64,000 nucleotides of DNA, taken from Paraburkholderia agricolaris. Lineage in GTDB: Bacteria; Pseudomonadota; Gammaproteobacteria; Burkholderiales; Burkholderiaceae. Below the pieces are notes generated by a model. That model did not search any database. It had not been told where the DNA came from and saw only the letters and a program-made list of their open reading frames with translations. The position numbers and the translations under genes are program-made. Below are positions 15,934-36,764 of the stretch, one piece after another. Location of the stretch: assembly GCF_009455635.1 (NCBI RefSeq), contig NZ_QPER01000001.1, positions 3,224,001-3,288,000 on the forward strand, read 5' to 3'. The number at the start of each line of letters is the position of its first letter. Within the stretch, counting starts at the first letter, position 1.

Positions 15934-15992
15934 ACGCTGCGTTCGACGCTGACGACGGCGCGGCGCCCAGGCGCCACACGGCCGCCGTCGCG

Positions 15993-18900
15993 TCATCGGC
16001 CGTTGGTCAACTGACCGCTTTCGCTCGCCGCCCGCTGGGCACGCCGCTCGTTACGCTTGCGGCGCAGCTCTGCGAGCCTCCGCCTGCTATAGGTTAGCGA
16101 GGCAACCGCATGAAACGCGACCGGCGCGAACACGAGGCCGAACAGCGTGGCCGCCAGCACCCCGCCAAATACGCCGGTGCCGATCGAGCGGCGGCTTTCG
16201 GCACCCGCCCCGCTCGACACTACGAGCGGCACGACGCCCAGCAGGAACGCCGCCGAGGTCATCACGATCGGCCGGAAGCGCGCCGCGGCCGCTTCGGTGA
16301 CAGCACGCGTCAACGGCAGCCCCCGGCGATACAGGTCGCGCGCGAACTGCACGATCAGAATCGCGTTTTTCGCTGCAAGACCGATCACGGTAATCATGCC
16401 GACCTTGAAGTACACGTCGTTGGGCATGCCGCGCAGCAGTACGGCGGCGACTGCGCCGATCACGCCGAGCGGCACGACCATCAGCACGGCAAGCGGGATC
16501 GTCCAGCTTTCGTACAACGCAGCCAGCGCCATGAACACGGCCAGCACCGACAAGCCGATCAGCAACGGGGTAAGCCGCGCCGCAGCGGTTTCTTCACGCG
16601 CCGCGTCGACCCAGTCGTACGAAACGCCGAGCGGCAACGCAGCGGCGAGCCGTTCCATTTCGGCCATCGCCGCGCCCGAACTGTAGCCAGGCGCCGCGTG
16701 ACCGCTCACGTCGAGCGACGGGTAGCCGTTGTAGCGGCTCAGCATCACCGGTCCAATGGACCAATGGCGCGACGCAATCGCCGACAGCGGCACCATGCCG
16801 CCCGTCGAGTTCGGCACCGAGAGCGCCATCAGATCGTCTTCGGTCATGCGGGTCGCGGCGTCGGCGGAGATCATCACCCGGCGCATGCGGCCGCCGGCAG
16901 GAAAGTCGTCGATATACGTCGAGCCGAAGGTGCTGCCCAGCACGTCAGAGATACGATCGAACGACACGCCGAGCGCGTACGCTTTCGCGCGGTCGATAAT
17001 CAGCTCGACACGCGGCGCATCCGGCAAGTCCTCGGAATGCACCGATGCCAGCACGGGGCTCGCCTTTGCCTGCGCGAACAGTTGCTCACGTGCGGCCTTC
17101 AACGCGTCCAGCCCGACTCCACCGCGATCTTCGAGCCGGAACACGAAGCCGTCCGAATGCCCCAGACCCGGCACGGAAGGCGGCAATTGCGCCTCAACGT
17201 CGCCGTCGAGAATCTTGTCGAACCTCTCGTTGAGGCGATCCCGCAACGCCATCGCATCGGTGTCGCGCTTGCCCCAGTCTTTCAGTTCGACGAAACCCAT
17301 TGCCACGTTCTGACCGCTGCCGGTAAAACTCCAGCCGATCACACTGGTGACGTGCGCAATCGCGGGCTCCATATGCAGGATGTTTTCCATCCCCTTGACC
17401 ACGGCAAGCGTACGCGCCTGCGTGGCGCCGGCCGGCAATTGCACCATCACCTGCAACTGGCCCTGGTCTTCGCTCGGCAAAAAGCCGCCGGGCATTTGCC
17501 AGTACAGCACGCCGCATACGCCGACCAGCACGGCATAAATGACCAGCATCGGTCCAATACGGCGCAGCGTTCTCGCGGTCAGCCCACGATAGCCGCTCGC
17601 TGTGCGATCGAAACCGGCGGTGAAATGACTTGCCGCGCGCGCCGCGAAACCGAGCGGGCCGCGGCGGGCATCGCGCTCACTCACCGGATGCTTGTGCGCT
17701 TTCAGCAGATTCGCGCACAACGCGGGCGTCAGCGACAAAGCCATGAACGACGACACCAGCATCGAGGCGATCATCGCCACCGCGAATTGCCGGTAAATAC
17801 CGCCGACGCCGCCTGGAAAGAATGCCATCGGCACGAACACGGCAGTCAGGACGGCGGTCACGCCGACGATCGCACCGCCGATTTGCGACATCGCTTTACG
17901 GGTTGCCTCACGCGGCGGCAAGCCTTCTTCTTCCATCACGCGATGCACGCTTTCCACCACCACGATCGCATCGTCGACGAGGATACCGATGGCGAGCACG
18001 AGGCCGAACATCGTGAACACGTTGATCGACAGGCCGCAGACGTAAATCGCGAGAAACGCGCCCATCAGCGTGACCGGAATCACCACCGTCGGCACCAGCG
18101 TGTAGCGCAGATCGCGCAGGAACAGCCACATCACGAAGAACACCAGCACCACCGCTTCCGCCAGCGTGACCAGCACTTCACGAATCGCGATCTGCACGAA
18201 ATGGGCGTTGTCGAACGGGATTTCGACCGCCACACCAGGCGGCAAGGTTTTCGAAAGTTCAGCCAGCCGCGCGCGGATCGCGTTGGACGTCTCGAGCGCA
18301 TTGCCGCGCGGCCCGAGTTGAATACCCACGGTTGCGGCGGCCTTGCCGTTCAGGCGGGAATAGTACGAGTAGTTGTCGCGCCCGAGCTCGACCCGCGCGA
18401 CGTCCCGCAAGCGCACGGCCGAGCCGTCGGGCAATGCCTTGAGCACGATCTGTCCGAACTCGGCGGGCGAGATCAGTTGCCCCTTCACGCTCACCGAGGC
18501 GGTCAATTGCTGCCCCGGAACGAACGGCGCGTCGCCCAGCGTGCCGGCCGTTACGGTGGCATTCTGCGCGGCGATCGCGGCGTTGACTTCGGCGGCACCG
18601 AGGCCGTATTCGCGCAGCTTCATCGGATCGAGCCAGATGCGCAGCGCCTCGTCGGCGTCCCACAACTCGGCCGCGCCCACACCCGGCGCGCGCTTCAGTT
18701 CACGCAAGACGTAGCGGCTCAGGTAATCGCTCAGTTGCACGGAATCGCGCGAGCCGTCCGTCGATGTCAGCGCAACCAGCATCAGGAACGTATTGGCCGC
18801 CTTGAATACGCTAATGCCCTGCTGCACGACCTGTTGCGGCAGGCGCGGCTCGACCTGCTTGAGACGGTTCTGGATGTCGACCAGCGCGAGATCCGGGTTA

Positions 18901-19193
18901 GTGCCCGGCGCAAAGGTCGCGTCGATCTCGAGATTGCCGAGATTGTCGCTAGTCGTTTCGTAGTACAGCATATTGTCGGCGCCATCGAGACTTTCCTCGA
19001 TGATGCTGCCGACGTTCGCATCGACCACCTCCGTGGCGGCGCCCGGATAGGTGGCGCTGATCACGATACGCGGCGGTGCCAGACGCGGATACTGCGCCAC
19101 CGGCAGTTGCGGAATGGCGAGCGCGCCCGCTACCACAATAGCGAGCGCAACAATCCATGCGAAGACCGGGCGGTCGATGAAAAAAAATGGCAC
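15993..19193 (-). CDS. AcrB/HAE1-type RND efflux permease, last gene of the yej-tld-GNAT run
   Basis: This 1066-residue hydrophobic/amphiphilic RND exporter starts MPFFFIDRPVFAWIVALAIV. It has the first transmembrane helix at about 10-29, porter domains, the proton-relay pair in GILVDDAIVVVES, and a long second bundle. A lysine/arginine-rich tail ends it. It follows the GNAT gene at 19206 by 12 bases on the same strand, so it looks like the terminal gene of that run. No adaptor or outer-membrane factor gene is nearby; it must borrow partners from elsewhere or from the 4267-6964 genes. It could expel the processed or acetylated product of the upstream enzymes. That role is inferred from position only. 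Confidence 0.9.
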   Translation of the reverse strand: MPFFFIDRPVFAWIVALAIVVAGALAIPQLPVAQYPRLAPPRIVISATYPGAATEVVDANVGSIIEESLDGADNMLYYETTSDNLGNLEIDATFAPGTNPDLALVDIQNRLKQVEPRLPQQVVQQGISVFKAANTFLMLVALTSTDGSRDSVQLSDYLSRYVLRELKRAPGVGAAELWDADEALRIWLDPMKLREYGLGAAEVNAAIAAQNATVTAGTLGDAPFVPGQQLTASVSVKGQLISPAEFGQIVLKALPDGSAVRLRDVARVELGRDNYSYYSRLNGKAAATVGIQLGPRGNALETSNAIRARLAELSKTLPPGVAVEIPFDNAHFVQIAIREVLVTLAEAVVLVFFVMWLFLRDLRYTLVPTVVIPVTLMGAFLAIYVCGLSINVFTMFGLVLAIGILVDDAIVVVESVHRVMEEEGLPPREATRKAMSQIGGAIVGVTAVLTAVFVPMAFFPGGVGGIYRQFAVAMIASMLVSSFMALSLTPALCANLLKAHKHPVSERDARRGPLGFAARAASHFTAGFDRTASGYRGLTARTLRRIGPMLVIYAVLVGVCGVLYWQMPGGFLPSEDQGQLQVMVQLPAGATQARTLAVVKGMENILHMEPAIAHVTSVIGWSFTGSGQNVAMGFVELKDWGKRDTDAMALRDRLNERFDKILDGDVEAQLPPSVPGLGHSDGFVFRLEDRGGVGLDALKAAREQLFAQAKASPVLASVHSEDLPDAPRVELIIDRAKAYALGVSFDRISDVLGSTFGSTYIDDFPAGGRMRRVMISADAATRMTEDDLMALSVPNSTGGMVPLSAIASRHWSIGPVMLSRYNGYPSLDVSGHAAPGYSSGAAMAEMERLAAALPLGVSYDWVDAAREETAAARLTPLLIGLSVLAVFMALAALYESWTIPLAVLMVVPLGVIGAVAAVLLRGMPNDVYFKVGMITVIGLAAKNAILIVQFARDLYRRGLPLTRAVTEAAAARFRPIVMTSAAFLLGVVPLVVSSGAGAESRRSIGTGVFGGVLAATLFGLVFAPVAFHAVASLTYSRRRLAELRRKRNERRAQRAASESGQLTNGR

Positions 19194-19205
19194 GCAATAG
19201 TCCGT

Positions 19206-19754
19206 TCAGATTGGCTGGAGGCGCGGCGCGTCAACGAGGCGGGCCATATGCAGCACGTCGGCCAGTATGCCGTCGCGCATCGCGAAACCGCGCGAGCGGC
19301 CTTCTTCGACAAAGCCGAACTTGCGATACAGCGCAATCGCCGGCGCGTTGTCGAGAAACACCGTGAGGTCGATACGGCGCAAACCGAGCGACGCGTCCGC
19401 GCAATCCGTCAGCCCCTGCAGAAGCGCCGAGCCGACACCGCGCCCATGATACGCGTCATGCACGGCCAATCCTAAGTGCGCGCAATGCGCGCGACTGGGC
19501 CGCTGGACCTCCAAGCCTGCGTGGCCGACCATGTGCCCGTCAATCGTTGCACACACGTTCACACCGTCTTTGAGGCGCCGCTCGTACCATATCTTGAGTT
19601 GGTCGGCGCTGCGGTAGCCGACCGACAACGTGCCGCGCCGCACGCCAGGCAAGCTCATGATATCGGCGAACGCGTCCATATCGGACGATTCAAGTGCGCG
19701 AATCGTAATACGATTGTCGAGCGCGGCGCCGTGCTGCACCGTTTCTTCTTTCAT
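19206..19754 (-). CDS. GNAT N-acetyltransferase (YhhY/RimJ-like), gene A
   Basis: This 182-residue acetyl-CoA-dependent transferase has the GNAT motif A (Q/RxxGxG/A) in YHGRGVGSALLQGL and the motif B region RRIDLTVFLDNAPAIALYRKFGF. The tail FAMRDGILADVLHMARLV is very like that of E. coli YhhY-type amino-acid acetyltransferases, from memory. It lies 4 bases after the next GNAT gene (19759) and 12 bases before the RND permease. Its neighbours are a peptide importer and the TldD/TldE protease, so an amino group of a peptide or released amino-acid derivative is a reasonable substrate guess. The N-terminal 15 residues are extra compared with the core. Confidence 0.88.
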   Translation of the reverse strand: MKEETVQHGAALDNRITIRALESSDMDAFADIMSLPGVRRGTLSVGYRSADQLKIWYERRLKDGVNVCATIDGHMVGHAGLEVQRPSRAHCAHLGLAVHDAYHGRGVGSALLQGLTDCADASLGLRRIDLTVFLDNAPAIALYRKFGFVEEGRSRGFAMRDGILADVLHMARLVDAPRLQPI

Positions 19755-19758
19755 AGTC

Positions 19759-20361
19759 CTATTCCGCTACGATGCTGGCGGCTGCCGGCTCATTGTGGAT
19801 TGCCGGTGGCGCCGACATCCATAGCGGTGCCTCGCGCAGCCGCGCCATGAAATAGCAGTCGATCAGGACGCCACGGCGCAACACCGCACCTCGCTGATGC
19901 GCTTCGATCTCGAAGCCGAACTTGCGATAGAGTGCGAGCGCCGCATGGTTGTCGGCGAAGACATGCAACTCGAGACGGCGCAGACCGAGCCAGTTATCGG
20001 CCAGATCGAGTAGTTCGGCCATCAGCGCCGAGCCGATGCCGCGCCGGTGCCATGCGTCGTGAACACCAATGCCGATCGACGCGGCATGCGCGCGGCGCCC
20101 CTTGAAAGGCGTGAACTCCGCCTCGCCCACCAGGGTATCGCCAACCGTCGCGGCGATCGCGATCTCGGGGGGCGCGAGTTTTTCGAGGTATTCGCGCGAG
20201 CTGGCCAGCGTCTGAAACGGTACGTGCGGATTGCCGTTCACCACGGCCGGCAACTGCCACATGGCATGGAATTGTTCGACGTCGGAAACACGCAATGCGC
20301 GCAGCTTCAAACCCTCGGGTAAGCCCCCTGAACTGGATTTTGTTCTTATGTCTTGATTCAT
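19759..20361 (-). CDS. GNAT N-acetyltransferase (YhhY/RimJ-like), gene B
   Basis: This 200-residue paralogue of the neighbouring GNAT has motif A in WHRRGIGSALMAELLD and LELHVFADNHAALALYRKFGF, then a C-terminal LRRGVLIDCYFMARLR. The two GNATs are clearly related yet diverged, so they may act on different acceptors. Genes are 4 bases apart on each side (20361/20366 and 19754/19759), tight enough for translational coupling. Both could protect the cell from a processed toxic amine, as RimL and the MccE acetyltransferase domain do for microcin C in E. coli. That comparison is inference. Confidence 0.88.
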   Translation of the reverse strand: MNQDIRTKSSSGGLPEGLKLRALRVSDVEQFHAMWQLPAVVNGNPHVPFQTLASSREYLEKLAPPEIAIAATVGDTLVGEAEFTPFKGRRAHAASIGIGVHDAWHRRGIGSALMAELLDLADNWLGLRRLELHVFADNHAALALYRKFGFEIEAHQRGAVLRRGVLIDCYFMARLREAPLWMSAPPAIHNEPAAASIVAE

Positions 20362-20365
20362 AGGC

Positions 20366-21727
20366 TCATAACGTCAATTCGAATGACCTCGCCAGGATGC
20401 CGGGCAATTGCATGCCGCCCGTGGCGCGCTCGCCCCATGTCGAATCGCTCAATAGCAATTGCGCCTGCGAGCCGAGTTCTTCGAGTTCGCTGCCGAGCAG
20501 GCGGTACAAACTGTCGTCGAAACGCATGGCATCCAGCGGCGCAACGATCTGCCCGTTTTCGACCCAGAAGGTCGCGAAACGCGTCATGCCGGTCAGGCGG
20601 CAATTCATCCGGTCGGAGAAATTGACGTACCAGAGATTGCCAATGTAGAGACCCGTATCGAGCTTTGCCAGCACGTCTTCTTCCCGCAGATCGCCTGCTT
20701 GCATCGAGAGCGCGGCCGGCGACTCGCCCGCCAGCGCACCGTTAGGCGTCAAGCCGTACTCGCGCGCGCTGCGGGCATTGGTCAGGCGTTCGGCGCTGCG
20801 GCCGGCCTGGATCAGCGAGACGCTTTCGCGCAGGTAGCCGTCGTCGTTGAAGCCGGGTGTAATGCCGAGATTCAGATCTTCGCTGATCGTGACGCGCGGG
20901 TCGACTACGATTTCTCCCACATGCAGCTTGTACAACTCGCTGCGCGAACTCGCCTGGGCGCGCGCGGAGAAACCGCTCCATGCGGTCACGCCGAGCAGTT
21001 CGGCCAGTGCTTCAGGCGCCAGATACGAGCGATAACGCCCCGGCGCCAGGGTGCGCGGCGTGCGCGCGAGCACCGACAGACGCGCTGCGGCCTGTTCGAC
21101 CTTGCGGGCGAAAACCGTGTCGCTCCAGTCGTCGCCGGCGTAAGTCGTTTTGATCGCACGACCGCTCGGGTCGTACAGCGACCAGCTGAAATTGAAGTTG
21201 TCGACTTCGTACCAGCCGCGGCTGCCACCCGTGGACGCAAAGCCCCGCACAATCGTGCCGCCCGCGTAAAAACCCACGAAATCCAGCCCTTGCGCGCATT
21301 CGGCGACCACGCGCAGCAAGCCAGCCGGCTCCGGCAGCTTGCCCGAACGTTGGGTGGTGCGCGCCCATTGCGTCGTGTCGATCAGCAGATGCGGGTCATC
21401 CGCCGCACCACGCAGACCTTCGCGCAAGGTGGCGAGCGCCGCGCTCACATCGTCCAGATCCTGTTGCAGATCGCCGCAGATTGTCAGCGTCGAATAGGCC
21501 TGGCGTGCGCCGTCGATCAAGCGCAAGGTCAGCTTGCCTTGCGACACGCTGCCGATCTGCCGCACCCGGCCCAGGTTGAAACGGATAAAGTCGGATTGCT
21601 CGCCGGCAAATGAACTCAGCGTGGTTTCCGAGCCCTGCTGCAGGCGCTCGATAGCGTCGGCCAGCGCGGTGAAATGCTGCTGCCAGTCGACCGCTGCAGC
21701 GGCGCGCGAGGAGATGAACTGGCTCAT
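20366..21727 (-). CDS. TldE/PmbA-family protein, non-catalytic partner of TldD
   Basis: This 453-residue protein belongs to the TldD/PmbA family. In the known TldD-TldE heterodimer, TldE lacks the zinc-binding HExxxH and supplies part of the substrate channel; no HExxxH is seen here either. Recognisable pieces are GFYAGGTIVRGFASTGG and NCRLTGMTRFATFWVENGQIVAPL near the end. The frame is open to 21820, but ATG 21727 fits: its ATG overlaps the TldD stop codon as TGATG. E. coli TldD/TldE matures microcin B17 and degrades small unfolded peptides. Here it sits directly after a YejABEF-type importer. Confidence 0.88.
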   Translation of the reverse strand: MSQFISSRAAAAVDWQQHFTALADAIERLQQGSETTLSSFAGEQSDFIRFNLGRVRQIGSVSQGKLTLRLIDGARQAYSTLTICGDLQQDLDDVSAALATLREGLRGAADDPHLLIDTTQWARTTQRSGKLPEPAGLLRVVAECAQGLDFVGFYAGGTIVRGFASTGGSRGWYEVDNFNFSWSLYDPSGRAIKTTYAGDDWSDTVFARKVEQAAARLSVLARTPRTLAPGRYRSYLAPEALAELLGVTAWSGFSARAQASSRSELYKLHVGEIVVDPRVTISEDLNLGITPGFNDDGYLRESVSLIQAGRSAERLTNARSAREYGLTPNGALAGESPAALSMQAGDLREEDVLAKLDTGLYIGNLWYVNFSDRMNCRLTGMTRFATFWVENGQIVAPLDAMRFDDSLYRLLGSELEELGSQAQLLLSDSTWGERATGGMQLPGILARSFELTL

Positions 21728-23163
21728 CAGGCGCCTCCGAACACGTCGATGTTGCTGAACACACACGCCGGCGACGCGTGGCCGACGCGAATGATCTGCG
21801 CCGGTTCGCCCTTGCCGCACATGGACGTGCCGTACACCTCGCGCGTCTGCGCATTCCCCACCGCGCTCAGGCTACGCCAGAAATTCGCTGAAATACCGCG
21901 GTAATTCGGCTGTTTGACGACCTGGGTGAGCTTGCCGTTTTCGATCAGCTGACCGAACTCGCAGCCGAACTGGAATTTGTTGCGATGGTCGTCGATCGAC
22001 CAGGACGTATTGGTGCGCATCAGAATACCGTGTTCGATGTTGCCGATCATCTGCGCGAGCGAATGCTCGCCGGGTTCGATGTTCAGATTCGCCATCCGGT
22101 CTATCGGCGGGCGGTTCCAGTTCGAGGCACGCGAATTCGCCACGCCCGCCATCTGCGCGCGCTGCTGCGAAAGCGCGCCGCCGAGCGGACGTTCGAGCAC
22201 GCCGTCGCGGATCAGATACTGTTTTTTCGCCTCAGTGCCGTCGTCGTCGAAGGCGTACGCGGCGGCTTCCTCGCGCAAATCCGGATCGAAGGTCACGTTC
22301 AGCAGTTCCGAACCGTAGCGGTACGAGCCAAACATCTCCTTCTTGACGAAGCTCCAGCCGGCAAAATTGCGCTCGTCGCCGAGAATGCGATCGAGCTCGA
22401 GCGGATGGCCGATCGATTCGTGAATCTGCAACATCATCTGATCGGGCATCAGCAGCAAATCGCGCTTGCCCGACGGGCAATTCGGCGCGGCCAGCAATTG
22501 CAGCGCTTCATTGGCGACACGCGCACCTGAGCCGTCGAAGCCGAAACGCGCCAGCACTTCCATGCCACCCTGCCCCAGCGTGCCGTAGTTGCCGCCGAGC
22601 GTACGCACCTGTGTATCGCCGTCCGCGTGGGCGGCCACGCTCAATTGCGGCATCACGAACTGGAACCGCTGATTGATCCGCACGCCGTCGCTAGTCACGT
22701 AGAGCTGATCGGTATGCGTGATCTGCACGGCCGCGACACGCTCCACAATGCGCGCATCGAGATTCGCACCCGCGCATTCCACGCTGAGGCGCTCCAGCCA
22801 CTCGGCGCGGCTCGGCAACGCATGCTGCGCATTCGGCGATACATAGTGGCCGCTCACGGCCGGGCGCGCCACCTCGCGATGGTCGATCAACGACAAGGCC
22901 GCGCTCGCCTCCGCGCGCGCCGTGGCGAGATCCAGCGCTTGCTGCAGACCGGCGGCGCTCAGATTCGCGGTAGCCGCATAGCCTGCGCCCGCGCCCGCCC
23001 ATGCGATCAGCATTGCGCCACGATCGCGCACTGTACGCATGGGTTGCGCGATGTCGTTGCGGATCTCGTGGTCGTCGATCTGTTCGTCGACAATGCGCAG
23101 CGACCAGAATGCCGCGCGGCTACCAAGCGATCGGGCGGCTTGCGCCCAACGTTCGTCAATCAT
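21727..23163 (-). CDS. TldD-family metalloprotease
   Basis: This 478-residue zinc metallopeptidase has the TldD signature HESIGHPLELDR (HExxxH). The family also shows the typical ending around SWSIDDHRNKFQFGCEFGQLIENGKL and MCGKGEPAQIIRVGH, both present. The protein should act in the cytoplasm on small linear peptides threaded into the TldD/TldE heterodimer. ATG 23163 (MIDERWAQ) is taken as start and overlaps the upstream ATPase stop by 8 bases; ATG 23193 is an alternative. Together with the next gene it makes a tldD-tldE pair. In many bacteria the two are unlinked; here they are adjacent and fused into a transporter operon. Confidence 0.9.
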   Translation of the reverse strand: MIDERWAQAARSLGSRAAFWSLRIVDEQIDDHEIRNDIAQPMRTVRDRGAMLIAWAGAGAGYAATANLSAAGLQQALDLATARAEASAALSLIDHREVARPAVSGHYVSPNAQHALPSRAEWLERLSVECAGANLDARIVERVAAVQITHTDQLYVTSDGVRINQRFQFVMPQLSVAAHADGDTQVRTLGGNYGTLGQGGMEVLARFGFDGSGARVANEALQLLAAPNCPSGKRDLLLMPDQMMLQIHESIGHPLELDRILGDERNFAGWSFVKKEMFGSYRYGSELLNVTFDPDLREEAAAYAFDDDGTEAKKQYLIRDGVLERPLGGALSQQRAQMAGVANSRASNWNRPPIDRMANLNIEPGEHSLAQMIGNIEHGILMRTNTSWSIDDHRNKFQFGCEFGQLIENGKLTQVVKQPNYRGISANFWRSLSAVGNAQTREVYGTSMCGKGEPAQIIRVGHASPACVFSNIDVFGGA

Positions 23164-26935: not shown

Positions 26936-26943
26936 GCTGTTCC

Positions 26944-28842: not shown

Positions 28843-29035
28843 GGTTGTCCTCATTGAACCAGGTTGGCCGCAAGCAATTGCGCAATGACGCCAGCAAGCG
28901 CCCGCGAATGCTGGAACATCATGTGTAGCTTCATCGCTCGGTACGGATGCTCCGGTTTATGACCAAAGGCACGATTCATCCAGTCGAGGTAGCGAGCCGG
29001 TTGAATACGTCCGAAAGACTTGCATTTCCAGGCAA

Positions 29036-29072
29036 CCCGCTCCGGTTTTCAGCAATGAAAGACCGGAGCGGG
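29036..29072 (-). terminator. Hairpin between the TonB-dependent receptor and yejA
   Basis: An 11-bp perfect stem (CCCGCTCCGGT and its complement) with a 15-base loop starts about 30 bases beyond the receptor stop. No T-run follows on the minus strand, so it may attenuate or protect mRNA ends rather than fully terminate. The space from here to 28842 holds no gene and could contain a separate yejA promoter. Confidence 0.5.
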
Positions 29073-29102
29073 ACGGTTCGTCACGCTTGAGAGATCAGCT
29101 GA

Positions 29103-31895
29103 TCAGAACTTGTAGGTTGCACCGATCTGCGCATAACGACCGATAAAGTTGTAGAGCGACGTGTCGTAGCCCGTCTGGTAATACGGGTACTGCACGAAGT
29201 TCGGGTCATACGGCGGCGCACGGTTGAAGATGTTGTTGATGCCACCATACAAGGTCCAGTTCTTGAAGCCCGTGTAGCTTGCCGTCAGGTTGAACACGCT
29301 GAACGAACCGATTTCCGTCGGGATGCCGGCCGTGCCGAACTCCGATTCCATCGTGGTATTGCCGTACGGTCCCGTGTAATTCCACGTCAGCGCGGTATTC
29401 CACTTGCGATTAGGCGACTGCCAGCTGACTGTCGTGTTGCCCTTCCAACGCGGGAACGAACCGCCGAACGACAGGGACAGGGAACTGTTGTTACCCGCCG
29501 CATCGGTTGAGCCGTTAGCAAGACCCGGGGTCTGGAAGTGCCAGATGTAGCCCCAGTCGGTCGAGAGCGCGAAGGTACCGAGTTTGGTCGGCAATGCCTG
29601 ATGGAAGTTCGCCTCGAAACCGTCGGTATGCAGATACGAGAAATTGACCAGTTGCGAGTTGACGTAGTCGATCACACCGGAATTCGGATCACGGACCACG
29701 TTTGCCGGATTGTTCGCATTCACCGTCGGCTGAAGCGGTGCAATACCGATCACGTTTGACACGTCGATCTTGTACCAGTCGAAACCCAGGTCGGTATTAC
29801 GCGCGGGCGACAGTTCAAAGCCGATGTTGTAGTTCTTGGTGCGCTCCGGTTGCAGATTCGGATTACCGTGCATCAGTTCGGCGACGTTGACGTTCTGGCC
29901 GTACTGCGCGCTAGCCGGATCGGTATCGATCGCCGCCTGATTCCCCAGAGACGCGCCAGGCGCGGATTCAACCAGCGTCGGTGCGCGGAACCCGCGGTTG
30001 TACGATGCATATGCGGTGAATGCCTGCATCGGTTGATAGCGCAGAGCAAAGCGCGGCGAGAACGCACCACCGAACTGGTTGTAATGGTCGTATCGGCCAG
30101 CCTGGCTAAAAGTCAGGTTCTTGATGATAGGAATATCGATCTGGTAGTAGACTGCCGCCACGTTACGGCTCGCGTCTGCCGACTGCAGAGGAATGCCGGC
30201 AATCAGCGTCTGGCCCGTGCCCACGCCAGTCGGATTCGAGATGGATTCGCTTTGATGCTGGAACTGCGCACCGAAACCGACCCCCACGTCGCCTGTCGGC
30301 AAGTGGAACAGATTCGGCGTCGAAATGGTCGCGTCGACTACGTCGAGCTTCGATATAGCCAGGTAATCCGCGTTGCTGAACAGACCATTGAGACCGTTAG
30401 GCGTTGCAGCGGGATTGGCAAAATCATAGCCGCCGGCCAGAACGCTCTGATACGCCTGGGCGTTCATCACATTCGTATCGGTCACTGCAACAACGCTCTG
30501 CGAATGGCCATAGCTGGTCGCCCAGTTCCAGCTACCCCACTTCGACGTGTCGAACTGCCCTTTCAGGCCGGTCGAAAATGCCCAGAAATTCGAGGTCGAC
30601 TGCACACCCACGGGTGTGTTCGGAAAAGTATAGTTAAGCGGCGTTGCGACGCCGAACGGATTGTACGGATTGCTCGCGGCAACCGTGTTGTTGTTGGTCA
30701 CCAGCCCCGTCGCGGGCGAATACGACAGCGGTGAACTCAGGCCGCTGAAGTATGCCGCGCCAGTCACGATCGAGCTCGTGGCGTAGCTGTCCCAGATGTC
30801 GGCGTAAGCCTGAACGTCGTCGTTGATCTTGAAATCGCCGTGAATCTTCACGTTGGCGTGCTCGCTCTCGGGCGCCAGCGAATCGAGACTACTGGTGTTG
30901 TACCCGCAAGCGGTGCCGGGCTGGAAAGCTGCCGTGGTCGAGGTCGCGGTCGAGATCGTTTTGCCGCCGGCGCAATTGCCCACGGCAACCGGCCCGTTGC
31001 CCGTTAGCCAGTAGGACGTGGGCTGGTTGTTCCCGTACGGGAACACCTGGCTGGAGGTCGTATCGCGCTGTGACAGGTCGATACCGCTCGTGTGGGCGTA
31101 GCTGGCGGCTGCCGTGATGTTGTAGCCGTCGGAGGCCAGGTTGCCGAAGCCGCCCAGAATGTTGAACTTGTCGGTGCCCGCGCCGCCGTGCTGCGCGCCG
31201 CCCAGGCTGCCGTCCAGTTGCAGACCCTGGTAATCATGCTTGGTGATGATGTTCACCACGCCCGCGATTGCGTCCGAACCATACTGCGAAACCGCGCCGG
31301 TCTTCACGATCTCGATGCGGTCGATCATGTTGAGCGGCAGCGAATTCAGGTCGACGAACGAATCGGTAAAGTTCGTATTGAGCGCATAAGGCGCCACGCG
31401 CTGACCGTCTATCAGCACCAGCGTGTACTTTTCGCTCAGACCGCGCAGTGCGATACCCGAGCCGCCTGGTGCAGTGCTGTACGTGTAGTTGTCGCCCCAA
31501 CTGCTTGCCGAGTTGGCTGCTGTCGATCGCAGGAAATCCGACACCGTGGCCGCGCCACTCGCCTGGATATCCTTCTGCGAAACGACCTGCATCGACTGGA
31601 AGCCGGTCTTGTCGGATTGACGGATCAGCGAACCGGTCACTTCGAACTTCTTCATCTGCTGGACGCCTTTGCCAGCCGGCGTCGCGGGGGTGTTGCCCGC
31701 GGACGGTGTCGCAGCAACGCCCGATGCCGGAGCTGCCGCCGCTGCCGGCGGGCTTTCCGCAGTCGTCGCACCCGCCGCGGTTCCTGTCGTGGCCGGCTGG
31801 CTTTGTGCAAACGCCGGTACGGCGATTGCGGCCGACAATGCCAGTTCAGCCCAGATTATTCTTCTGATGGCCAGCGCCAATGCCCTCTGTTTCAT
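29103..31895 (-). CDS. TonB-dependent outer-membrane receptor
   Basis: This 930-residue receptor has a signal region ending VPAFAQ, a long low-complexity Ala/Pro/Thr linker (about 31-80), a TonB-box-like segment before KFEVTGSLIRQSD, and a plug domain (about 95-230) with the conserved VLIDGQRVAPYA and DRIEIVKTGAVSQYGSDAIAGVVNIITK. A large beta-barrel follows, ending YAQIGATYKF with the terminal Phe. GGGGA precedes ATG 31895. The extended linker after the signal peptide and the size resemble receptors for larger substrates rather than simple siderophores. It is flanked by a dedicated TonB/ExbB/ExbD set upstream and a peptide importer downstream, which suggests a peptide-like ligand. No Fur box was noticed. 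Confidence 0.93.
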   Translation of the reverse strand: MKQRALALAIRRIIWAELALSAAIAVPAFAQSQPATTGTAAGATTAESPPAAAAAPASGVAATPSAGNTPATPAGKGVQQMKKFEVTGSLIRQSDKTGFQSMQVVSQKDIQASGAATVSDFLRSTAANSASSWGDNYTYSTAPGGSGIALRGLSEKYTLVLIDGQRVAPYALNTNFTDSFVDLNSLPLNMIDRIEIVKTGAVSQYGSDAIAGVVNIITKHDYQGLQLDGSLGGAQHGGAGTDKFNILGGFGNLASDGYNITAAASYAHTSGIDLSQRDTTSSQVFPYGNNQPTSYWLTGNGPVAVGNCAGGKTISTATSTTAAFQPGTACGYNTSSLDSLAPESEHANVKIHGDFKINDDVQAYADIWDSYATSSIVTGAAYFSGLSSPLSYSPATGLVTNNNTVAASNPYNPFGVATPLNYTFPNTPVGVQSTSNFWAFSTGLKGQFDTSKWGSWNWATSYGHSQSVVAVTDTNVMNAQAYQSVLAGGYDFANPAATPNGLNGLFSNADYLAISKLDVVDATISTPNLFHLPTGDVGVGFGAQFQHQSESISNPTGVGTGQTLIAGIPLQSADASRNVAAVYYQIDIPIIKNLTFSQAGRYDHYNQFGGAFSPRFALRYQPMQAFTAYASYNRGFRAPTLVESAPGASLGNQAAIDTDPASAQYGQNVNVAELMHGNPNLQPERTKNYNIGFELSPARNTDLGFDWYKIDVSNVIGIAPLQPTVNANNPANVVRDPNSGVIDYVNSQLVNFSYLHTDGFEANFHQALPTKLGTFALSTDWGYIWHFQTPGLANGSTDAAGNNSSLSLSFGGSFPRWKGNTTVSWQSPNRKWNTALTWNYTGPYGNTTMESEFGTAGIPTEIGSFSVFNLTASYTGFKNWTLYGGINNIFNRAPPYDPNFVQYPYYQTGYDTSLYNFIGRYAQIGATYKF

Positions 31896-32274
31896 TTTTC
31901 CCCTTCCCGCTCGTCAATAAGGCCACAGCTGTGTGTGAAGAGAGGTCTTATGAACCTCTCCACTCGATGTACGGCGATCTTGCGCCGCGCTCCGTTAAAG
32001 CTGCCCCGCCTTCCAATGCCCAGCAAGCCGGTCAACAGCGCACCGGATTGCAAATGCAAGCAGGAAGGTAGGGCACTTCATAAACATGAATATCGGACTA
32101 TTTATTTATTACAAACGAATTGCGCAGCGCTTTCTGATTGTTATCACTTCTTTAATCTCAGGCTCTGGTTATATGGGCAACACACGCTCTACCAGATCTA
32201 TTCCCGATCCAACATTAAGTAATGCTTACAAATATTGAGCGACTCACTCAAACGAAAATGCGGAGCAACGACAT
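31896..32274. promoter_or_regulatory. 379-bp AT-rich leader/promoter region of the receptor, with a small hairpin
   Basis: This gap holds no convincing gene. Its distal part (about 32080-32240) is clearly AT-richer than its surroundings and probably contains the receptor promoter. A 7-bp inverted repeat (GAGAGGT and ACCTCTC, 31940-31960) lies 45 bases before the receptor start and could form a leader hairpin. A binding site for the adjacent XRE regulator is likely but cannot be fixed by eye. Confidence 0.5.
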
Positions 32275-32850
32275 CTAAAACAATCGTGGCGTGCCCACCC
32301 ACACAACTACCGCTTCCTCGCGGGTGGTATTGCACCAGGAGTGAGGCACGGTGGACTCGTAATGCGCGGTGTCACCGGCCTGCAATACGAACGTTGTACC
32401 TTCTAATGTGAGCGAGATCTGGCCGCTCATCACGTACAGGAATTCTTCCCCCGCATGCGTCGTGACCTCCGATGGGTTCTGCCCCACCGGCATCCTGACG
32501 AGAATCACTTCCAGCTTGCTGCCGACCGACAGGTTCGTCAGCCGTCCAAAAAGATTCGCGGTTCCGTCGAACCCGAAGTACTTCAGCTCGCTCCCCCTGC
32601 GCACCGACCTGTCTTCATTTGGCGTATCGACGAAGTACTGCACCGTCACACCTAAAGCCCGGGCGATGCCCACTAGCGACGTAATCGAAGGTGTTGCGTG
32701 ACCTCGTTCTACCTGCGACAAAAAGGGCTTCGAAATTCCCGCCGTGTTTGCCACTTCATCCAGCGTGCGCTTGAGTCGTTGGCGAAGCGCGCGAATTTTG
32801 CTTCCTATCGAAACTGCGACCTGTGCCTTGTTATCGAGTGGCAAAACCAT
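32275..32850 (-). CDS. XRE-family regulator with C-terminal cupin
   Basis: This 191-residue transcription factor has an N-terminal lambda-repressor-like helix-turn-helix (about residues 15-70, RALRQRLKRTLDEVANTAGISKPFLSQVERGHATPSI) and a C-terminal cupin_2 domain (about 105-190, HAGEEFLYVMSGQISLTLEG and GDTAHYESTVPHSW). Such HTH-cupin proteins commonly control amino-acid, amine or peptide metabolism and bind a small effector in the cupin. ATG 32850 is chosen over an in-frame TTG at 32874. It sits between the TonB-system operon and the receptor on the same strand and is the obvious candidate controller of this block. An inverted repeat lies 35 bp upstream of its start. Confidence 0.88.
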   Translation of the reverse strand: MVLPLDNKAQVAVSIGSKIRALRQRLKRTLDEVANTAGISKPFLSQVERGHATPSITSLVGIARALGVTVQYFVDTPNEDRSVRRGSELKYFGFDGTANLFGRLTNLSVGSKLEVILVRMPVGQNPSEVTTHAGEEFLYVMSGQISLTLEGTTFVLQAGDTAHYESTVPHSWCNTTREEAVVVWVGTPRLF

Positions 32851-32884
32851 AGCAAGACAGAATCCCGTAGTCAAAATTAGTTTG

Positions 32885-32906
32885 ATGAAACTAAACTATG
32901 TTTCAT
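32885..32906. promoter_or_regulatory. Inverted repeat ATGAAAC-N8-GTTTCAT, candidate XRE operator
   Basis: Perfect 7-bp arms with an 8-base AT-rich spacer lie directly upstream of the XRE/cupin gene. Position and symmetry suit an autoregulatory operator. The same half-site GTTTCAT also occurs at the receptor start codon (31889-31895), which may be chance. Confidence 0.45.
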
Positions 32907-32982
32907 TGAATGCAGCACCCTCCTTAAGACACGCGCGATAGCAGCGCTTCGCAAGATGGGACATAGCGGAATCAATGCACCG

Positions 32983-34188
32983 TTATTTCGACGCCACCAG
33001 CACCCACAGGCGGGCAAGGTCGGCCGAACCGTCGGTACCCTTTACAGCGCGGAAGGTTTGCACCGCGCGAGCTTTGTCGCCCGCCATGTAGTACGCCTCG
33101 CCGAGATGCAGTTGCGCCTGGTCCGGGTGATCGATACCGCCCTTCGCGATCGCAGCGTCCATCGCCGTCAGACCCTGCTTGGGCTGCCCTGCGAAAACCT
33201 GATTGAAACCCACGTCGATCGGCGCGACGGGGTTCGCGGGATCGGCCGGTGCTTGCGCCCGTTTCGCGGCGAGCGCCTGCAACCGCTTCTCGCGATCCGC
33301 TTGTGCGTCGTGACCGAGAACGCCTGACGCAAAGCCCTGATCGATGACCTGTTTGCCTTCAGCCGTGGTGCCGGCCACGATCGCGAGTTGCGTCATCTCC
33401 ATGTAATCGTCGGCGGTGCTGAGCGAACCGGTTGCACGGCGCAGGCGATAGGTGTCGATATCGAGCGCCGACGAATAGCCGGGCTTGCTGCGAATCGCGG
33501 TGAACAGATCGTCCCAGTACGACTGCTTCGGATGATAGGCAACCAGTTTCTCGAGCGTGCTGCGGTACGTCGCGTCATCTTTCACGCGCTGCGCGCAGGT
33601 GCCGAGCAATTGCAATTGCGATTCGTCGGGTGCATGGCCGGCGCGTACCTGGGCATCGACTGCCGGTTTAAGCGAACTCACCACATCGCTGCAATCGTTT
33701 GCCAGGTAGTAAGACTGAACAAGCAAAGTGCGCATGTCGGGATCGCCGCCGCCTGCTTTCAGATAGCGTTGCGCGACCTTCGCGGCTTGTGCGTAGTTTT
33801 TCTCCTGAAAGTAGATGCCCGCGAGCGCTGCGGTTGTGCGTTGCTCATCGGCACCGGTCAGGCGTCCTGAACTCAACAAGGTTTCATAGGCCTGCGCCGC
33901 CACACCCGATTCGCCGGCCGCCGCTGCCGCGGCGCCTCGCATCTCCTGGATCATGTAGCTTTCGTAGGGCGTCTTGCCCGGCACGGCGTCGGCCTGATCG
34001 ATCTTCGTCAACGCATCCTTGTACTTGTGCGCGCGATACAGATCCTGCGCGGCGTTCAGCGGCTTGGCCACATCCGGCCGCAAGCTGTCCGCTGCATGAG
34101 ACGTGACCGGCAGCACGACGAGCGCGGACAGCCCTCCGATAGCGGCCGCGATGACGGCGCGCTTGAACCGTTGATGGATCGTTAGCAT
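32983..34188 (-). CDS. Periplasmic TPR-repeat protein of the TonB cluster
   Basis: This 401-residue exported protein has a signal peptide (about 1-32, ending TSHA) followed by helical repeats of tetratricopeptide type, for example ALAGIYFQEKNYAQAAKVAQRYLKAGG at about 125-150 and PDQAQLHLGEAYYMAGDKARAVQTFRAVKG near the end. It is the last gene of the tonB-exbB-exbD-exbD run, 9 bases after the second exbD. TPR proteins in this place are known in several proteobacterial TonB clusters, but their job is unclear; scaffolding of the complex is likely. Confidence 0.82.
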   Translation of the reverse strand: MLTIHQRFKRAVIAAAIGGLSALVVLPVTSHAADSLRPDVAKPLNAAQDLYRAHKYKDALTKIDQADAVPGKTPYESYMIQEMRGAAAAAAGESGVAAQAYETLLSSGRLTGADEQRTTAALAGIYFQEKNYAQAAKVAQRYLKAGGGDPDMRTLLVQSYYLANDCSDVVSSLKPAVDAQVRAGHAPDESQLQLLGTCAQRVKDDATYRSTLEKLVAYHPKQSYWDDLFTAIRSKPGYSSALDIDTYRLRRATGSLSTADDYMEMTQLAIVAGTTAEGKQVIDQGFASGVLGHDAQADREKRLQALAAKRAQAPADPANPVAPIDVGFNQVFAGQPKQGLTAMDAAIAKGGIDHPDQAQLHLGEAYYMAGDKARAVQTFRAVKGTDGSADLARLWVLVASK

Positions 34189-34197
34189 TGCACTTCC

Positions 34198-34626
34198 TTA
34201 TTGCATGTACTGCTCGTTGCCGATCAGGCCGATTTTCGTTGCGCCTAGCCGCTGCGCCGACGCCATCACCGCCGCGACATCCTTGTACGGCACCAGCTTG
34301 TTAGGCCGCAGATGGATTTCCGCCTGAACCGGTTCGGCCGCCACCTGCGCGAGCCTGGACTCGAGCGCCGCGCGGTCCGGCACCGGCTGGCCATTCCAGG
34401 TGGTGGTGCCGTCGAAATCGATATCGATCTGCACCACTTCCGGCTGCGTGATCGGCGGCGGCGGATTGCCAATCGGCAAGTTCATCTTGATGGCATGCGT
34501 CTGAATCGGAATCGTGATGATCAGCATGATCAGCAACACCAGCATCACGTCGATCAACGGCGTGGTGTTGATATCGACCATCACATCCGGTTCGCTGCCA
34601 CCGCCCGACGATACGTTCATTCCCAT
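34198..34626 (-). CDS. exbD: ExbD-family biopolymer transport protein, second copy
   Basis: This 142-residue inner-membrane protein has one transmembrane helix (TPLIDVMLVLLIMLIITIPI, about 22-42) carrying the proton-pathway Asp in IDVMLVLL, and a periplasmic C-terminal domain. It is one of two tandem exbD genes. The second differs in its periplasmic part, with an NPPPPITQPEVVQIDIDFDG segment. Tandem exbD1-exbD2 occurs in Xanthomonas, where the two have separable roles. Gaps of 9 bases separate it from both neighbours. Confidence 0.92.
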   Translation of the reverse strand: MGMNVSSGGGSEPDVMVDINTTPLIDVMLVLLIMLIITIPIQTHAIKMNLPIGNPPPPITQPEVVQIDIDFDGTTTWNGQPVPDRAALESRLAQVAAEPVQAEIHLRPNKLVPYKDVAAVMASAQRLGATKIGLIGNEQYMQ

Positions 34627-34635
34627 GGCGACCCT

Positions 34636-35058
34636 CTAACCGCCGCGCGCTGGCGGCTCAGTAATAAACGAAACCTTCGCGATACCGGCGCGCTCGCACT
34701 CGGTAATGACCCGGCCGATGAATTCATAGCGCGTGCTCTGGTCACCGCGAACATGCACTTCCGGCTGCGGCGTCATGACCGACACGGTTTTCAGTCGTGC
34801 CAGCAGCGTCGGCGCATCGACCTGTTTCTCGTTCCAGAAGAAATCGCCGTCGCGATTGACCGCAATGACGATACTTTTGGGCGTGGTCTGCAGCGGCTGG
34901 ATCGTCTCCTTCGGCAATTGCACCGGCACCGTATGCGTCACCACCGGAATTGTGATCAGGAAGATGATCAGCAGAACCAGCATCACATCGACGAGCGGCG
35001 TGGTGTTGATACTGGAGATGACCTCGTCGTTATCATCCTGCCCAACGCTCATAGCCAT
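34636..35058 (-). CDS. exbD: ExbD-family biopolymer transport protein, first copy
   Basis: This 140-residue ExbD has a transmembrane helix with the essential Asp in TTPLVDVMLVLLIIFLIT (about 18-35). The periplasmic part has VPVQLPKETIQPLQTTPKSIVIAVNRDG, the usual ExbD pattern. It forms the proton channel with ExbB and energises TonB. It starts 12 bases after exbB and precedes the other exbD by 9 bases. Confidence 0.94.
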   Translation of the reverse strand: MAMSVGQDDNDEVISSINTTPLVDVMLVLLIIFLITIPVVTHTVPVQLPKETIQPLQTTPKSIVIAVNRDGDFFWNEKQVDAPTLLARLKTVSVMTPQPEVHVRGDQSTRYEFIGRVITECERAGIAKVSFITEPPARGG

Positions 35059-35070
35059 GACGGACTCCGC

Positions 35071-35979
35071 TTATTGGACCAGCGATGCCTGGCGAGCCGA
35101 AGCGCGCGCCGAGCGTCGGCTGCCGGCGAGCAGAACGGTATGCAGTTGTGCGCCGAAGGCTCGCACACGCTCCATCACCGACTTGTTGCGGCGAACCAGG
35201 AAGTTGTAGCCGAGCACCGCCGGCACAGCCACGGCGAGGCCGATGGCGGTCATGATCAGCGCTTCACCCACCGGACCCGCAACCTTGTCGATCGACGCCT
35301 GGCCGGCGATACCGATGGCCGTCAGCGCGTGATAAATCCCCCACACCGTGCCGAACAGACCGACGAACGGTGCTGTCGAGCCGACCGTCCCGAGGAAAGC
35401 CAGACCGTCCTGCAAGCGATTCGACACATTGGTGATCGCGCGCTCAACCGAGGTATCGATCCACGTGTTGCGGTCGACGGCTTCGAGCAGCGCTTCGTCG
35501 TGGTGTTCGCCGGCTTCGATCGCGGTTTCGGCGATGAAGCGGAACGGCGACGACTCGTCGAGCAGCTTGGCGCCTTCGACCAGCGACGGGGCAGTCCATA
35601 ACTGTTCGTCTGCGCTCTTCGCGCGACGGTTCGCGCGGAACTGCTCGAAGAACTTGGTGATCATGATGTACCAGCTGCCCATCGACATCAGCACGAGCAG
35701 AATCAGCACGAAGCGGGCGACGAAGTCGCCGTTCTTCCAGAGCGCGCCGAGACCGTACGGGTTATTGACGGTTTCAGACGTGGCCGGCTGAGGCGGCGGC
35801 ACGGCCTGGTCGGCGGCGGCCGGGGCAGCCGTTAGCGGTGCGGCGGTGGCGGGCGCCGCAGCCGACGCGGTGGCGTCGCTAGCCTGCGCATGCGCCATGT
35901 GCGGCGCCACAAAGGTATCCACCGTGGTTACGGCGAACAACAGGGTTGCCGCCAATGCGGCGAGAGTACGCTTCTTCAT
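35071..35979 (-). CDS. exbB: ExbB/TolQ-family proton channel protein
   Basis: This 302-residue protein has an N-terminal signal-like segment and an Ala/Pro-rich periplasmic stretch (about 1-70), then the MotA/TolQ/ExbB domain with three transmembrane helices (about 87-108, 195-220 and 235-260). The conserved FLGTVGSTAPFVGLFGTVWGIYHAL and GEALIMTAIGLAVAVPAVLGYN motifs are both present. The long N-terminus is typical of ExbB rather than TolQ. ATG 35979 has GGAG upstream. It follows tonB by 77 bases. Confidence 0.93.
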   Translation of the reverse strand: MKKRTLAALAATLLFAVTTVDTFVAPHMAHAQASDATASAAAPATAAPLTAAPAAADQAVPPPQPATSETVNNPYGLGALWKNGDFVARFVLILLVLMSMGSWYIMITKFFEQFRANRRAKSADEQLWTAPSLVEGAKLLDESSPFRFIAETAIEAGEHHDEALLEAVDRNTWIDTSVERAITNVSNRLQDGLAFLGTVGSTAPFVGLFGTVWGIYHALTAIGIAGQASIDKVAGPVGEALIMTAIGLAVAVPAVLGYNFLVRRNKSVMERVRAFGAQLHTVLLAGSRRSARASARQASLVQ

Positions 35980-36056
35980 GCCTGCTCCAAGTTCATTAGT
36001 ACAACTTCTAAACCAAGACTGATAAATCGCTACCGGTACCGAACAGCCCGTGTGTT

Positions 36057-36764
36057 TCAGTTCAGGTTAAACGAGAACGGAACCTGTACACGGACGGCCT
36101 GGCCTTGGGAAACGCACGTGAACTGCTTGACCGCGTTGAACGCAGCGCGATCGAGTGAGGAATCGTCCGACGACTTGGCAACCCGTTCGTTCGTAATATG
36201 GCCCTGCGCATCAACCACGAATTCGATCAGCACATCGCCCGTCACGTTGTTCTCCTGCGCTTCCTTCGGGTAGTGAATCGACGAACGGACCTGATCCGAA
36301 TTCGGGCATGCCACGCCTACTTCGGCACTCACGGGCTTGGCCGGCGCTGGCGCGGGCGGTGCGGGAGGCGCCACGGCGGGTGCCGACACGACCGGTGCGG
36401 CCTGGTGCGTGATAGTCGGCTGGGGCGGCGTTTGCACCTGCACTTCCGGCGGCGGCACGAACGGCGGTGGCGGCGGTGCGAACTTCGGCGGCGGCAATTG
36501 CACGGTGGGCAAAGGCGGCGGAGGCGGCGGCTTCACCGGCTCGATGATCTTCGTTTCGATTGGATGCTGAATGACCTGCACGACCTTGGTGGCAAGGCCA
36601 TTGATAAGCGCGTAGATCAACACGATATGCAGGAGCAGAACAACTGCGATACCGCCGAAGCGGCGCACTGGGTTTTGTTGCTTACGCCCAAACTCACGCG
36701 GGCGTCCTGGCCTCTCCATACGGGCCGCTACTGCCGGAAATTGCCCTTCGACTTTCGTACCCAC
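36057..36764 (-). CDS. tonB: TonB energy transducer
   Basis: This 235-residue protein has an N-terminal transmembrane helix (about 36-55, GIAVVLLLHIVLIYALINGL), a proline-rich spanner (about 75-150, KPPPPPPLPTVQLPPPKF) and a C-terminal TonB domain (about 160-235, YPKEAQENNVTGDVLIEFVVDAQGHI). It should connect the ExbB/ExbD proton channel to an outer-membrane receptor, most likely the one at 29103-31895. The start is a GTG at 36764 preceded by GGAGGA with a 6-base gap; no ATG upstream has a comparable site. It is the first gene of the TonB-system operon. Confidence 0.92.
   Translation of the reverse strand: MGTKVEGQFPAVAARMERPGRPREFGRKQQNPVRRFGGIAVVLLLHIVLIYALINGLATKVVQVIQHPIETKIIEPVKPPPPPPLPTVQLPPPKFAPPPPPFVPPPEVQVQTPPQPTITHQAAPVVSAPAVAPPAPPAPAPAKPVSAEVGVACPNSDQVRSSIHYPKEAQENNVTGDVLIEFVVDAQGHITNERVAKSSDDSSLDRAAFNAVKQFTCVSQGQAVRVQVPFSFNLN

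Follow-up and report, generated by a model that had tools for sequence, protein, structure and literature searches.

A block of sixteen genes in Paraburkholderia agricolaris, lying between positions 15,993 and 36,764 of a 64,000-nucleotide stretch (contig NZ_QPER01000001.1, positions 3,224,001 to 3,288,000; hereafter the window), joins a TonB-ExbB-ExbD motor and a TonB-dependent receptor to a YejABEF-type importer, a TldD/TldE-type peptidase, two GNAT acetyltransferases and an RND permease, and raises the question of what such a set would carry across the cell envelope. We hold it fairly probable, from sequence comparison, that the block serves the TonB-driven import of peptide-class ligands through exchangeable receptors. 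Across related genomes we observed the parts themselves, their repeated association in rearranged orders, the replacement of both the motor and the inner-membrane importer, an exchange of the receptor with sharp breakpoints, and a leader in front of the receptor gene.

Core and interchangeable parts of the gene set

Two collections were compared, a genus sample of 117 genomes and a separate set of 80 related loci. The receptor family was found in 72 of the 117 genomes, 67 of which also carry this Yej-type importer, and 45 of the 117 have neither. In all 67 importer-bearing genomes a receptor lies within 12 kb of the gene for the importer's substrate-binding protein (SBP), with SBP places defined as matches of at least 66% identity, so that other YejA proteins, matching at about 50%, are left out. 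In these 67 genomes tldD lies within 10 kb of the SBP gene at 60 of 76 SBP places; counted from the peptidase across the 117 genomes, an SBP is near tldD at 58 of 73 places, and the gene for the second acetyltransferase, GNAT2, lies within 5 kb of tldD at 54 of 54. Several draft genomes split the locus over contigs (G203, for example), and the 117 genomes are related to one another, so the Fisher p of the linkage is no phylogenetic test. The co-location that the original prediction put up for checking is seen across the genus sample, and a chance grouping in a single strain is rejected by the linkage counts in the 117 genomes and the 80 loci.

The full Yej set was present in 60 of the 80 loci, and within the stretch compared these 60 held the receptor in 55, the RND permease in 53 and the regulator in 46. 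A tldDE pair without Yej was found in 19 of the 80 (18 bare, one with RND), and one more locus ends at a contig end. L181 and L183 carry receptor, motor and Yej genes without tldDE, GNATs or RND in the stretch compared; in L182 and L185 the RND gene is present and tldDE is absent. L190 and L191, which are the same loci as L042 and L037 (identical receptors), were counted once.

Both the motor and the importer can be replaced. In eight of the 80 loci a distantly related TonB-ExbB-ExbD type, its ExbD 28-30% identical to that of the window where aligned, sits just upstream of the SBP gene in place of the usual motor, and the same type occurs in L181, L186, L187 and L189. Five genomes have the receptor and lack this Yej set. 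In all five the receptor is found next to an Opp-like importer of five genes, with OppA recognized by similarity at that place in each, and the locus also contains the alternative type of motor. At L203, the sole Opp locus that was profiled, the best NCBIfam matches are OppA, OppB, OppC and OppD, and the SBP scores 854 bits against a periplasmic oligopeptide-binding protein in the PDB. OppA was found in 18 of 20 chosen genomes, elsewhere in ten (the window's genome included) and beside the receptor in eight, which by coordinates are the five Yej-less genomes together with G229, G260 and G305, three that also have the Yej set. The receptor family is thus linked to an Opp-type importer in eight genomes, and this second importer type supports a peptide ligand class. 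Because the motor type is replaceable and tldDE, GNATs and RND are missing from some systems, the core reads as receptor, nearby TonB motor and peptide ABC importer, with tldDE, the GNATs, the RND permease and the regulator appearing as frequent but optional additions.

Two plasmid loci place tldDE in other company. On a Pseudomonas aeruginosa plasmid (L102, CP124675.1, 7989-17419) a tldDE pair of the same clade lies by an exporter-fold ABC protein, followed by TonB-ExbB-ExbD and a TonB-dependent receptor, which reads as another, distinct way of joining TldD/E to a TonB route. On a B. stagnalis plasmid (L101, NZ_CP156687.1, 27803-34595) the DNA about 5 kb past tldDE encodes an M16 peptidase and three radical SAM proteins, the one scanned being B12-binding, and has an open reading frame (ORF) of 55 amino acids (aa); this is possibly a peptide-modifying cluster.

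Receptor exchange and the hairpin leader

Within this arrangement, the receptor departs from its neighbours. Between the window and locus L021 the receptors are 58% identical, whereas the other compared operon proteins are 90-99% identical; between the window and L024, of the same class, receptor identity is 95%. Single linkage at 75% identity divided 51 receptors into nine allele classes. Where the TldD proteins of a pair are 90-95% identical, the median identity of the receptors is 59%; at 95-100% it is 91% (62% of these 82 pairs at 75% or above), and very close pairs mostly have the same receptor class. A tree of YejB, YejE, YejF and TldD calls for 16 or more changes of receptor class; 8 would suffice if each class had arisen once.

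As a control, TonB-dependent receptor places were compared in G000 (20 of 20), in G310, taken as the genome of L021 (14 of 15), and in G302, taken as the genome of L024 (19 of 19). Among 13 reciprocal best receptor pairs of G000 and G310, 11 are 97-99% identical, one is 70% identical, and the operon receptor, in the same surroundings, is 55% identical. Between G310 and G302 the operon receptor is at 56%, with ten other reciprocal pairs at 92-98% and one at 69%; between G000 and G302, of the same class, it is at 94%. The 70% pair of G000 and G310 was not counted as an in-place exchange: its loci differ in arrangement and outer neighbours, and have ExbB, ExbD and two-component genes in common, as judged by eye.

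Near 31,800 the DNA identity between the window and L021 drops, and near 28,700 it rises again, with breakpoints inside both reading frames. The cassette so delimited starts at about codon 32 of the receptor gene, runs through the rest of that gene and the intergenic gap, and takes in roughly the first 50 codons of the SBP gene; in 100-base steps, identity is 0.96 just before it, 0.41-0.77 inside and 0.81-0.98 after. Identity is reduced as well, to 0.71-0.77, in the noncoding DNA separating regulator and receptor, except for its last 100 bases. Same-genome paralogues were rejected as the source of the window receptor's divergence, one family member being found in the window's genome. Elsewhere, 12 of the 72 receptor-bearing genomes hold two to six receptors of the family (lower bounds, with seven candidates scored in each), and G248 has two alleles in tandem, 60% identical. 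Of ten scattered copies examined, six reach 75% identity to an operon allele and four do not, and such copies may form an allele reservoir. The comparisons indicate repeated exchange of the receptor between species, with little change in the genes around it, and such exchange in an otherwise well-kept operon is new here.

As to the purpose of the exchange, we infer in the simplest view that the alleles would bind different members of one ligand class or would dodge phages or bacteriocins, with the inner importer staying general. An account in which the block serves ordinary peptide nutrition and receptor diversity reflects phage or bacteriocin escape only, unrelated to ligand choice, is compatible with peptide import and competes with it over the purpose of exchange; we regard it as a serious contender that falls somewhat short of even. 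It draws on the predicted loops, several long ones being among the most variable parts of the receptor (on a poor model and with weak statistics), on the SBP and permeases, which do not follow the receptor allele, and on HmbR of Neisseria, for which horizontal exchange and diversifying selection in loops are reported (PMC3068627). However, the variable parts also include the plug region, residues 91-150, and the genomes with several receptors, one with tandem alleles, suit a wider ligand range.

About 45-65 bases upstream of the receptor start lies a hairpin with a 7-bp stem and a UCAYRAG-like loop. In 19 distinct cores, representing 28 of 30 upstream sequences (L098 and L080, without a clear dyad, were left out), five of the seven stem pairs vary on both sides, in 12 such cells, a count as high being reached in 0 of 500 shuffles; sliding the pairing partner abolishes the signal. 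For L060, L047, L048 and L085 the core was set by eye on the dyad, which favours pairing in these four. An alignment of 34 distinct rows, fitted to the model, gave 26 both-side-change cells (0 of 500 shuffles), and one leader analysis took in 23 of the 30 upstream sequences. Under stricter filters, which make the counts lower bounds, the leader model R1 had 73 matches in 56 of the 117 genomes, all 56 with the importer, and 57 matches lay within 10 kb of it. The best ten of 15 off-operon matches each directly precede a receptor of this family, and the eleventh abuts a receptor by its coordinates. Two of the best ten, ahead of the scattered receptors L200 and L201, have a poor or incomplete stem; these two receptors follow a gene of about 347 aa, starting MYKNKLLRILVC and MHKKKLLRSLVC, which at a guess from its sequence perhaps encodes a nucleoside-related periplasmic protein.

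We take this hairpin for a structured RNA leader and a candidate for a new RNA element, and a covarying leader of this kind, with no match to an Rfam family, before many operon and scattered receptors is the second new observation here. Because the whole 80-nucleotide leader folds no better than shuffles (z -0.57), the RNA reading rests on covariation. The alternative, a DNA operator at which the XRE-cupin regulator would bind, appears to us unlikely. The fold result and the position of the dyad ahead of the receptor start suit an operator, and XRE-family regulators are reported to bind palindromes (PMC12565409). An operator would, however, be expected to keep its half-sites, whereas these change in a compensated manner around a more conserved loop, and the hairpin also precedes scattered receptors near which the stretches compared contain nothing matching this regulator. 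Elsewhere in the window the receptor dyad recurs at one site with three mismatches, not above chance, and sigma-70 and terminator scans gave no signal above shuffles.

Taken to the order as a whole, a receptor-variable peptide uptake in Burkholderiales, with one conserved motor and importer served by a pool of exchangeable receptors (operon alleles and scattered copies, up to six found per genome), many under a shared covarying leader that may control them together, is a picture that we judge evenly poised.

Window genes and their families

The features of the block, all on the minus strand and given in transcription order, are as follows.

36057..36764, minus strand: TonB, 235 aa (Pfam TonB_C, 62.6 bits)
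35071..35979, minus strand: ExbB/TolQ-type proton channel, 302 aa (Pfam MotA_ExbB, 112.9 bits)
34636..35058, minus strand: first ExbD (Pfam ExbD, 99.3 bits)
34198..34626, minus strand: second ExbD (Pfam ExbD, 88.1 bits)
32983..34188, minus strand: TPR protein, 401 aa, with a signal-peptide-like start (Pfam TPR_16)
32275..32874, minus strand: XRE-cupin regulator, 199 aa (Pfam HTH_3 and Cupin_2)
31893..31982, minus strand: receptor leader with the covarying hairpin at 31940-31960 (covariation, model R1 matches)
29103..31895, minus strand: TonB-dependent receptor, 930 aa, allele class D of nine (Pfam plug and barrel)
28700..31800, minus strand: approximate exchanged cassette (single DNA identity comparison with L021)
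26944..28854, minus strand: periplasmic SBP of the YejA/MbnE family, 636 aa (Pfam SBP_bac_5; YejA and MbnE in the PDB)
25883..26935, minus strand: YejB-type permease (NCBIfam PRK15133, 425.8 bits)
24814..25944, minus strand: YejE-type permease (NCBIfam PRK15021, 396.5 bits)
23156..24817, minus strand: YejF-type double ATPase (NCBIfam PRK15134, 616.7 bits)
21727..23193, minus strand: TldD-like metallopeptidase (HExxxH at residue 258, CGK at 459)
20366..21820, minus strand: TldE/PmbA-like partner, likely start 21727 (family match; without HExxxH)
19759..20361, minus strand: first GNAT acetyltransferase, YhhY/PA1377-like (NCBIfam, PDB)
19206..19754, minus strand: second GNAT acetyltransferase, YhhY/PA1377-like (NCBIfam, PDB)
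15993..19193, minus strand: HAE1/AcrB-type RND permease, 1066 aa (TIGR00915; motifs GILVDDAI and GLAAKNA)

The original prediction had named these sixteen genes, their positions, strand and order, and the families given to them, and ORF coordinates together with Pfam and NCBIfam profile searches bear all of this out. Its statement that junctions from the SBP gene to the RND gene are overlaps or gaps of at most 12 bases likewise agrees with the measured spacings: from tonB the gaps are 77 bases to exbB, 12 and 9 to the two exbD genes, 9 to the TPR gene, 108 to the regulator, 379 to the receptor and 248 to the SBP gene, and from there 8 to yejB, overlaps of 62 to yejE, 4 to yejF, 38 to tldD and 94 to tldE, and gaps of 4, 4 and 12 to gnat1, gnat2 and rnd. 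Later start codons would shorten the long overlaps (tldE at 21727, tldD at 23163, yejE at 25929). The larger gaps of 77, 108, 379 and 248 bases in the upstream part make several transcription units likely. The TPR gene accompanies this TonB set and adjoins this first motor type in other arrangements too. The host genome measures 8.7 Mb, and the closest record among the matches listed, from which the window's own may have been omitted, is Paraburkholderia fungorum LMG 16225, with TldD at 98%.

The SBP belongs to the YejA structural family, with 324 bits to YejA in the PDB over residues 38-610 and 318 bits to the methanobactin-binding MbnE (PDB 5icq). YejB, YejE and YejF are the nearest named models for the other importer proteins, yet all three scores lie under the NCBIfam cut-offs (445, 439 and 834 bits, in that order). 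A second yejABEF elsewhere in the genome has no receptor, motor or tldDE within the 20 kb read, and its YejA-type protein is 50% identical to the window SBP. The TldD-like protein carries HExxxH as HESIGH at 258 and CGK at 459, and no HExxxH occurs in its TldE-like partner. Scores far under the equivalog cut-offs (78.8 of 513 bits for TldD, 93.6 of 635 for an archaeal model, 24.7 of 438 for the partner against PmbA) mark the pair as a divergent clade, and better scores go to two other PF01523 genes of the genome, which lie elsewhere and presumably encode the canonical TldD and PmbA. The window yejABEF and TldD-family genes were accordingly rejected as the genome's sole copies.

For both acetyltransferases the best NCBIfam match is PRK10140 (YhhY), at 117 and 101 bits under a cut-off of 236, and the best PDB match is PA1377; no RimL-named model was among the NCBIfam matches, and no RimL- or MccE-named entry among the PDB matches listed. 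By these matches their closest relatives are not RimL or the MccE domain. YhhY acts on amino acids. A paper on lysine acetylation mentions YhhY (PMC6199490). The RND permease passes the HAE1 model TIGR00915 (1279.7 bits, cut-off 940.35), and we take its GILVDDAI and GLAAKNA to be proton-relay motifs. Twenty window proteins, from 12390 to 36764, were scanned with Pfam, and no adaptor or outer-membrane partner of this permease was among them, in which it differs from the AcrAB-TolC-type pumps that share its family. None of the receptor's 20 NCBIfam matches reaches its cut-off (TIGR01783 siderophore receptor, 72.2 of 223.5 bits; FepA-type, 105.7 of 583 bits), and the PDB matches listed are colicin I receptor, PirA, ferric enterobactin receptor and BtuB types.

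Around the block, a minus-strand ORF of 114 aa at 15652-15996, without a Pfam match, is probably no gene, and a plus-strand ORF at 15571-15933, of 120 aa with a signal-peptide-like start, is kept in 11 loci. OmpR-type regulators and a histidine kinase at 12390-15305, just past the RND gene and kept there in about 11 close relatives, may control it. By eye, an integrase ORF of insertion-sequence type (11034-12164) lies between these two-component genes and a porin-like gene, and the plus strand at 72-6964 carries a response regulator, a second RND permease and its apparent adaptor and outer-membrane partners. At the other end, adjoining tonB, a double-length ORF of 1975 aa (37745-43672) was named UvrA-like from its sequence. 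L039 (P. rhynchosiae) and L040 (P. dilworthii) have tldDE on its own, next to a long UvrA-like gene resembling this ORF, and the remaining set appears, by eye, to have been gained or lost there.

A putative route and its rivals

The route that we infer, in its peptide ligand as in the direction of each step, would run as follows. A ligand would bind the exchangeable TonB-dependent receptor and pass the outer membrane under power from the nearby TonB-ExbB-ExbD, and the YejA-type SBP would hand it to YejBEF for passage through the inner membrane. The TldD/E-type heterodimer of this strain would trim it from the N terminus, the two YhhY-like GNATs may acetylate products (freed amino acids or peptides, going by their YhhY-like relatives), and the RND permease may expel some of them, with the XRE-cupin repressor switching the set on upon a product signal. 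The first part of this scheme, which the original prediction had also put forward as peptide-class uptake across both membranes, is supported by the receptor, the nearby motor, the YejABEF-type importer and the XRE-cupin regulator. Beyond import, its four-step route keeps a catalytically plausible TldD/E-type peptidase, whereas N-acetylation and export find little backing in YhhY/PA1377-like GNATs and an RND permease without an adaptor; some systems that are intact in other respects lack tldDE, GNATs and RND, so the chain is not a constant part. That earlier picture did not include the exchange of the receptor, the leader with its hairpin or the second types of motor and importer.

Characterized systems lend the parts their likely roles. 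YejABEF, described from E. coli and Sinorhizobium as a promiscuous peptide importer (PMC10128002), shares its SBP, two permeases and double ATPase with the window set in the same order and family; the window set differs as a separate second clade, tied to a receptor and TonB motor that the host's other copy is without. TldD/E of E. coli is reported to trim unfolded peptides from the N terminus (PMC5810440), and the window pair resembles it in HExxxH and CGK in TldD and no HExxxH in TldE, differing in its divergence. PsdR of Pseudomonas, an XRE-cupin repressor, is reported to control peptide uptake genes (PMC7901475), and the window regulator is likened to it by domain make-up and by the neighbourhood of a peptide importer and peptidase, not by established orthology. 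The nearest working parallel is RagAB of Porphyromonas gingivalis, TonB-dependent, implicated in protein or oligopeptide uptake and reported with four alleles (PMC11817032). It belongs to another phylum and has a RagB lid; among the 20 scanned proteins there was no match to the SusD Pfam family of SusD/RagB-type lids, and the TPR protein matched TPR-type models only. As for HmbR, we know of no peptide importer linked to it. HmbR resembles the window receptor as a TonB-dependent receptor diversified through horizontal exchange, and differs in its haemoglobin ligand and in its two families, compared with nine classes here (PMC3068627).

Several observations weigh against peptide import as a general reading. 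The Opp pairing in five genomes may be one event, because these genomes have flanking genes in common. Of the 80 loci, 18 contain tldDE with neither Yej genes nor receptor nor RND; at 37 of 107 receptor places no importer SBP lies within 12 kb; and 11 of the 67 importer genomes have no leader match. Among the loci listed from other families of Burkholderiales, several between L107 and L111 being left out, tldDE (about 56-60% identical) is a lone pair without this importer, which makes the tie between tldDE and importer lineage-specific. The structure model of the receptor is poor (mean predicted local distance difference test score, pLDDT, 53.7). Finally, the YejA family also includes MbnE, binder of a copper peptide, so a metal-complex ligand retains some probability.

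On that last account, the block would serve metallophore or xenosiderophore uptake, with a metal-loaded peptide entering through the receptor and YejABEF, TldD/E freeing the metal and the RND permease expelling the spent ligand. Metal complexes are the usual cargo of those TonB-dependent receptors whose ligand is known, the window SBP is about equally close to MbnE and YejA, and the receptor's listed PDB matches are of siderophore, colicin and BtuB types. Nonetheless we consider it improbable: no siderophore model among the 20 NCBIfam matches reaches its cut-off, the 20 scanned proteins include no reductase, metal chaperone, siderophore maker, or methanobactin or copper gene, the regulator is XRE-cupin with no Fur-like box noticed by eye in the aligned leader (no formal scan was made), and the alternative importer is of Opp type. 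Least probable of all is the immunity pathway that the original prediction had also offered, in which a Trojan-horse antibiotic peptide would be imported, cut, acetylated and pumped out to protect the cell: the parts fit known fates of microcin C and microcin B17, the second GNAT is closely tied to tldD and an RND gene is present in most loci with a full Yej set, but importing a toxin for destruction would be costly, the GNATs are not RimL/MccE-like by the matches listed, otherwise intact systems do without GNATs and RND, and nothing points there among the 20 scanned proteins, which include no toxin maker and no maker of ribosomally synthesized and post-translationally modified peptides.

Each part of the probable peptide import route is known. 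Their joint occurrence, with a motor close by, peptide importers of two interchangeable types, a pool of receptors open to exchange and a leader that covaries, is described in no title or abstract opening among those listed from the open-licence PMC literature. Transposon sequencing with phazolicin is reported not to have pinpointed an outer-membrane uptake system (PMC10128002). For the way in which larger peptides and peptide antibiotics would cross the outer membrane toward YejABEF, the genomes compared here link one family of receptors, together with a TonB motor, to importers of the Yej and Opp types. The leader offers a candidate new RNA element, and the exchanged receptors form a natural allele set for mapping the recognition of ligands, or of phages and bacteriocins.

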